DNA of 64,000 bases, taken from Bdellovibrio bacteriovorus. GTDB taxonomy: Bacteria > Bdellovibrionota > Bdellovibrionia > Bdellovibrionales > Bdellovibrionaceae. Made by a program: the position numbers and the translations under genes. The DNA is taken from positions 1,873,184-1,937,183 of the forward strand of contig NZ_LUKE01000001.1 of NCBI RefSeq assembly GCF_001592735.1. The letters run 5' to 3'. The notes below the pieces were generated by a model that did no database searches, had not been told where the DNA came from, and saw only the letters and a program-made list of their open reading frames with translations. This document shows, piece by piece, positions 35,322 through 36,074 of this stretch. The first letter of the stretch is position 1, and each line of letters opens with the position of its first letter.

Positions 35322-35720
35322 ATGGCCTCAGTTTTTACTAAAATTATCAGCGGCGAATTGCCTAGTTATAAAATCTATGAAGACGATAAAATCATTTCTT
35401 TTTTAAGTATTGATCCGGTGAATTTAGGACACACTTTGGTTGTCTGCAAAGAAGAAATCAATCATTGGACCGAAGTTCCGGCGGATACTTATGCGCATCT
35501 TCATAAGGTTTCTCAAAAAATCGGCAAAGCGGTGCTTAAAGCGACCGGCTCACCACGTGTGGGACAGATTGTTGCCGGCTTTGAAGTTCCGCATTATCAC
35601 CTCCATCTCATCCCAGCTTGGTCCATTCCAGATTTGGATTTTAAGCGCGCCCAACGCCGAAGTGAGACAGAGATGAAAGAGGTCCAGGAAAAAATTGTGA
35701 AAGCTTTATCGGCAATTTAA
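35322..35720 (+). CDS. HIT-family nucleotide hydrolase/transferase
   Basis: HIT motif HYHLHLIPAW (HxHxHxx) at about residue 91, preceded by FTKIISGELPSYKIYEDD, the N-terminal hallmark of HinT/HIT proteins. At 132 residues it is standard. Acts on nucleoside phosphoramidates or dinucleoside polyphosphates; the substrate is not readable. AGGAG ribosome site upstream; single gene. Confidence 0.92.
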   Translation: MASVFTKIISGELPSYKIYEDDKIISFLSIDPVNLGHTLVVCKEEINHWTEVPADTYAHLHKVSQKIGKAVLKATGSPRVGQIVAGFEVPHYHLHLIPAWSIPDLDFKRAQRRSETEMKEVQEKIVKALSAI

Positions 35721-35839
35721 ATTCTCATTTTGATTTCTAACATTTTTTGGAACTAGACCACGTCCCATCTGGCGAAGATATTGTGACTATAGTAATATCA
35801 GGTAAAGCTTCTATCGGAGCTGGAGAGGAGGTGGTGCTT

Positions 35840-35887
35840 ATGGTTCAAAACTGTGACATAACCATGGCGGAGGTGGCGGCTTCTTAG
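35840..35887 (+). CDS. Possible 15-codon leader peptide
   Basis: ATG 35840 reads MVQNCDITMAEVAAS then TAG. It is preceded by AGGAGGT (35826-35832), a perfect anti-Shine-Dalgarno match at 7-base spacing. The stop overlaps the CGGCT/AGCCG hairpin. It may be translated within the structured RNA, or the purine run may serve the RNA itself. Confidence 0.35.
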   Translation: MVQNCDITMAEVAAS

Positions 35888-35926
35888 CCGACATACTTTC
35901 GCCTAGGATTCGAAAGAATCATATTC

Positions 35927-35960
35927 AAAGAGCGACCGAAAGGTCGCTCTTTCCTTTTTC
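35927..35960 (+). terminator. Strong terminator of the candidate RNA
   Basis: Eleven-bp perfect stem (AAAGAGCGACC with GGTCGCTCTTT) and GAAA tetraloop, followed by CCTTTTTC. Confidence 0.88.
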
Positions 35961-36046: not shown

Positions 36047-36074
36047 CTAAGTTAAATCCCTGAAATACCGATAA
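36047..36074 (+). promoter_or_regulatory. Sigma-28 (FliA)-type promoter of cheA
   Basis: CTAAGTTA (36047-36054), 12-base spacer, ACCGATAA (36067-36074), close to the FliA consensus TAAAGTTT-N11-GCCGATAA. The -10 ends 8 bases before the ATG at 36083, so the transcript would have little or no leader. Confidence 0.6.

Follow-up and report, generated by a model that had tools for sequence, protein, structure and literature searches.

What is encoded by the strongly folded stretch that separates a HIT-family gene (35322–35720) from cheA in Bdellovibrio bacteriovorus? In the analyzed window (64,000 nt of the genome), a preliminary description had placed an unassigned structured RNA of about 180 nt with at least five hairpins at 35775–35960. 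Folding of this segment gave −73.1 kcal/mol compared with −47.1 ± 3.8 in shuffles (z −6.8), and none of 200 shuffles was as stable. BLAST of whole genomes located the conserved block, which occurs as one copy in most Bdellovibrio genomes, and placed its start at approximately 35805, not 35775. The first stem (approximately 35777–35799) is the promoter region with a −10-like box, TAATAT (35793–35798; this and all features below are on the + strand); 6 nt separate the box from 35805, and relatives have a conserved TANNNT box at the same distance from the start site. Since this stem holds the −10 box, lies outside the conserved block and is followed by a stem whose first base is the mapped start of the transcript in strain HD100, we consider the first "hairpin" to be the promoter, absent from the RNA itself. 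A shared upstream motif, AAAWCTRGWCC, was also considered and rejected (7 occurrences in the window versus 8.4 expected).

The structured RNA thus stands, with a later start and a length of about 155 nt (35805–35959, supported by covariance-model matches), and it has four stems (P1–P4) plus a terminator. The 11-bp stem at the 3' end was confirmed as an intrinsic terminator, with a GAAA loop and a U-rich tail (35927–35959, hairpin 35927–35952), and a script detected a terminator in 65 of 91 homologues. In four loci (L004, L013, L016 and L023), a sub-hairpin (GATGAGCACCGGAAACGGATCC-like) was inserted in the terminator hairpin. GAAA tetraloops, to which attention had been drawn, are indeed present in the terminator and in P4, a small hairpin (GATTC-GAAA-GAATC, 35907–35920); however, both P4 and the GAAA loops are confined to the genus.

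A transcript from this locus has been reported previously. APsRNA2 of B. bacteriovorus HD100 (535,188–535,321, + strand, 134 nt; Karunker et al. 2013, Table 2, PMC3627812) was described as a non-coding RNA with homologues only within B. bacteriovorus, and was 43-fold up in attack phase (RPKM 8,869 versus 204 in growth phase). In the HD100-like genome G006, our match covered 535188–535337 and began at the published start; AAGCTTCTATTGG begins at position 535188, which corresponds to 35805 of the window. The coordinate frame was checked with merRNA, whose published coordinates hold a c-di-GMP-I riboswitch in G006, in agreement with PMC3627812. The published end (535,321), an estimate from coverage, falls within the terminator, which we take as the genetic end. 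Judged by the correspondence of the start base, the window RNA is the orthologue of APsRNA2, with which it also shares the location before cheA. The label "unassigned" holds with respect to Rfam, but the transcript itself was already on record, though neither as a family nor as translated. Another HD100 transcript, APsRNA6 (L033), contains AGGTGGTGGTTATGAATACGG close to the 5' end, which could plausibly serve as SD and start codon, and this RNA may likewise be an mRNA instead of being non-coding.

A search of the window against Rfam at curated thresholds gave no family above the gathering threshold, and a permissive search gave only terminator-like chance matches (the best sub-threshold ones were to MicX), in agreement with the earlier impression that no known RNA class could be recognized. 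A first covariance model (R1), built on 21 sequences from the genus plus a single one from the family (22 in total), matched 50 of 66 genomes in the family and 59 of 141 in the order. A second model (R2) matched 85 of 144 genomes in the class and 95 of 369 in the phylum, with one copy each; one genome was used per species and model E-values are rough. These matches point to an RNA of ancient origin that is present as one copy in much of the phylum Bdellovibrionota. Occurrence outside the phylum was addressed by a pattern scan of 84,980 species, in which 23 records were detected; 20 of these were of the Bdellovibrionales type, and the 3 others had weak or no scores with the model. When 18 RNA-negative genomes were searched again under relaxed settings, only marginal matches appeared; in these genomes the RNA is absent or has diverged past recognition. 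It was not found in three Bdellovibrio genomes (G013, G003 and G004), nor in any of the six sampled genomes of a sister genus (g6). A Saprospiraceae MAG contig binned to another phylum (L123, 7156–7288) gave a weak R2 match of 20 bits, which may reflect chance or a misbinned contig.

The preliminary description had missed a 15-codon ORF (MVQNCDITMAEVAAS, with an ATG start and a TAG stop, 35840–35887) and the AGAGGAGGTGGTG sequence that precedes it. The latter (SD1, 35824–35836) is complementary over 12 nt, including G-U pairs, to the 16S 3' end GGATCACCTCCTTT, which was taken from the window genome itself. Pairing of 10–14 nt was present in 91 of 92 homologues. By comparison, ORFs of at least 200 aa in the window reached at most 9 on a generous count, and SD1 has the longest 16S pairing among the eight HD100 AP RNAs, the others having at most 8. 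SD1 is located 6–8 nt from the start codon, which itself lies inside P2. Against efficient use of SD1, it is predicted to be only partly accessible in the full-length RNA (0.31 unpaired), compared with 0.65 in the nascent RNA. A conserved partner of SD1 in the 3' tail or the P3 strand, in the style of toxin mRNAs, was looked for and rejected; the partners were mixed and none was consistent.

In nearly all homologues, a purine-rich SD precedes a start codon and a closed frame. Among the 92 sequences, 82 start with ATG, 9 with TTG and 1 with GTG, and they stop with TAG (52), TAA (38) or TGA (2). The mini-ORF normally spans 12–21 codons (11–21 by the automatic rule, with one 1-codon miscall) and changes in length by whole codons, while closure at codon 12–21 occurred by chance in 22% of shuffled sequences. 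A conserved closed ORF with an SD in a stand-alone RNA is also what is expected of dual-function or peptide-coding sRNAs.

Of the stems flanking and overlapping this ORF, P1 and P3 are strongly supported by compensatory base changes in relatives, which had been proposed as a check. In an alignment of 79 homologues, which was guided by R2 and whose fit to the model leans towards structure, 93.9% of cells were paired compared with 77.1 ± 0.7 in shuffles and 32–51% when slid, and 176 double-sided changes were observed versus 50 in shuffles. Both this effect size and the cases that can be read by hand go far beyond what alignment bias would be expected to produce. For example, GGCGGAGGU/ACCUUCGCC is replaced by GAUGGAGGU/ACUUUCCAUC in L091, and L104 has a 15-bp helix of different sequence. 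P1, the 5'-terminal hairpin (AGCTTC-TATC-GGAGCT, 35806–35821), had double-sided changes in all 6 pairs and was 93% paired in the 79 sequences. P3, the core helix GGCGGAGGT/ACTTTCGCC around the stop codon (35866–35903), had double-sided changes in 8 of 9 pairs and was about 95% paired. In P2 (35834–35865), the start codon and the spacer before it are paired to ORF codons 7–9 (ATGGTT/AACCAT); this hairpin recurs in distant homologues with a new sequence in each clade, such as GCCCATG/CATGGGC, GGGA/TCCC and GTACTATG/ATAGTAC; its single-sequence significance is weak, with 36% of sequences at or below 5%.

The 5' strand of P3 contains a second SD-like sequence, GGAGGTG (SD2, 35869–35875), with 11 nt between the end of its core and the stop codon. 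An SD2-like core was present in 89 of 92 homologues, three having no recognizable SD2, and the spacing to the stop codon was exactly 11 nt in 73 of the 89. When the stop codon is in the A site, SD2 lies 8 nt from the P-site codon, which is also the commonest spacing between SD1 and the start codon. About ten loci have SD2 shifted to a different frame (GGA-GGN rather than NNG-GAG-GTG), and this persistence of GGAGG across frames argues that SD2 is conserved as RNA. Pairing in P3 alone explains part of this conservation. Within the helix, the G residues of the SD2 strand are nearly fixed and the partner alternates between U and C (in column 97, GU 54 and GC 23).

On these grounds, we propose, with a probability of roughly one half, that the locus encodes a stand-alone small RNA that is both folded and translated, and that its conserved function would be the act of translation and not the peptide. 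The promoter, P1, SD1, start codon, closed ORF, SD2, P3, terminator and stand-alone gene are each shown by sequence and comparison, and selection on translation rather than on its product is suggested by a peptide whose conservation goes no further than the RNA elements require. SD1 would recruit 30S subunits strongly, and translation would then open P2 and P3. The terminating ribosome may be held at the stop codon by pairing of SD2 with 16S rRNA, as by a clamp, and ribosome occupancy would keep P3 open, thereby setting the stability of the RNA or freeing the 3' strand of P3. A more tentative, though possible, generalization is a phylum-wide RNA class kept for being translated, without a conserved product, in which twin SDs at start and stop codons would hold the ribosome on the frame of 15 codons and thereby change how the RNA itself is folded.

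The alternative that survives best is an ordinary small-protein mRNA, in which the 15-residue peptide would be functional and the RNA folds would only protect or regulate it. Peptide-coding sRNAs are common (surveyed in PMC5521070), and the C-terminal DITKAEV-x-A-S is well kept within the family. However, the kept residues coincide with the strands of P2 and P3 and with SD2, and E is replaced by G where RNA pairing allows it. The 92 loci encode 89 distinct peptides, and beyond the family these are nearly unrelated, as seen for MANFGPSTEVRFP, MLCDYLTGGTLPRGGSL and MNSYSHRQPSSVIGRSRS. We regard this reading as unlikely. Within the genus, codons 3–6 varied at all three codon positions with a slight third-position excess (180 versus 156 and 125), which leaves room for some peptide constraint, and selection on the peptide may be acting weakly there. 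A type I toxin mRNA was also considered and rejected by inspection, as the peptides are polar, of 12–21 residues, and not hydrophobic or membrane-spanning.

A base-pairing (dual-function) sRNA is somewhat less probable still. Here mRNAs would be bound by the 3' strand of P3, which is C/U-rich, or by loop sequences, possibly only once P3 has been opened by a ribosome, and both the stand-alone gene with its own terminator and the resemblance of this strand (CCUUCGCC) to an anti-SD sequence would fit. On the other hand, the strand alternates freely between C and U, and the only unpaired segment conserved across the phylum is SD1. Much more doubtful is a stoichiometric decoy, by which 30S subunits would be sequestered in attack-phase cells that are not growing. 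Such a role would agree with the near-perfect complementarity of SD1 to the 16S tail and with the attack-phase expression in HD100, but a decoy has no need of a stop codon in a fixed place. In addition, APsRNA2 amounts to about 0.9% of tmRNA by RPKM, which makes it too scarce to titrate ribosomes in bulk; merRNA, with an attack-phase RPKM of 2,038,479, is only 2-fold above tmRNA (PMC3627812).

That the RNA acts on the next gene, cheA in the window, as a leader peptide or attenuator is suggested by the sequence of structured mini-ORF and terminator and by the presence of cheA as the next gene on the same strand in most Bdellovibrio. The short ORF, strong SD and presumed remodeling of flanking hairpins by translation also recall leader peptides and uORFs of the trpL, mgtL and orn34/speF type; the RNA differs from these in having its own terminator and neither a conserved downstream gene nor conserved sensing codons. 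A σ28 (FliA)-like promoter of cheA (TAAGTTAA-N11-ACCGATAA, 36048–36074), conserved in most Bdellovibrio, follows the terminator. Different genera have different genes after the RNA, and in 26 of the 74 loci from outside Bdellovibrio the next gene lies antisense; across the loci examined, no downstream partner was retained within one transcription unit. This variation argues that the RNA is not a cheA leader but a stand-alone gene, leaving the attenuator very improbable; a leader-type riboswitch had been judged less likely from the outset, and both the separate cheA promoter and the changing neighbour bear this out. Much of the remaining family has the order HIT protein, RNA, aldehyde dehydrogenase (gene names were read off translations and not from a family search), and neighbours vary farther out. 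The order with the dehydrogenase appears to be the older arrangement of the family, with cheA taking the place of the dehydrogenase in Bdellovibrio. As to the suggested link to motility, expression of the homologue in HD100 is specific to attack phase (PMC3627812) and cheA adjoins the RNA in most Bdellovibrio, whereas outside the genus the neighbours are aldehyde dehydrogenase or unrelated genes.

The least probable reading, a CsrA-binding RNA, had been raised by the csrA gene within the window (G000:C1:1875809) and by several GGA triplets, which are indeed present in the window copy, but it finds no support since GGA occurs at chance level (2.79 per RNA versus 2.60 in shuffles of the 92 homologues) and SD1 lacks GGA in 23 of 92, with GGGGG in place of GGAGG. 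The conserved GGAs are those of the mini-ORF SD and of the paired strand of P3, where SD2 is in a stem and not a loop, and several above-chance GGA motifs in hairpin loops were not found among the 92 homologues. CsrB/RsmX/RsmY sponges are likewise G-rich structured sRNAs in genomes with csrA, but their repeated GGA hairpin loops are missing here and the rsmX model (RF02144) scored 12.8 bits, far below its cut-off of 56. CsrA was present in each of the 106 good genomes of the class, irrespective of whether they have the RNA.

In SgrS/SgrT and RNAIII/hld, the peptide and/or the pairing seed is conserved. The RNA described here works like these and other peptide-coding sRNAs (PMC5521070) in being small and stand-alone and in carrying a short ORF that is probably translated, and differs in that neither peptide nor seed is conserved, while the SDs, start and stop codons and helices are. 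Minigenes, in which a very short ORF traps ribosomes or tRNAs (compare PMC8708949), share the tiny ORF and very strong SD; in contrast, the present ORF has 12–21 codons and lies inside a conserved structure in a single conserved chromosomal gene. The mini-ORF is absent from the paper that described the transcript (PMC3627812), and an orphan predator transcript regarded as non-coding and strain-specific becomes a single-copy family with covarying helices, a conserved mini-ORF and homologues across much of Bdellovibrionota. The family also offers a starting point for experiments on post-transcriptional control in predatory bacteria, a subject that is still poorly understood. If selection keeps translation itself and the product is irrelevant, a free-standing RNA would here be sensing or using ribosomes in an unusual manner.
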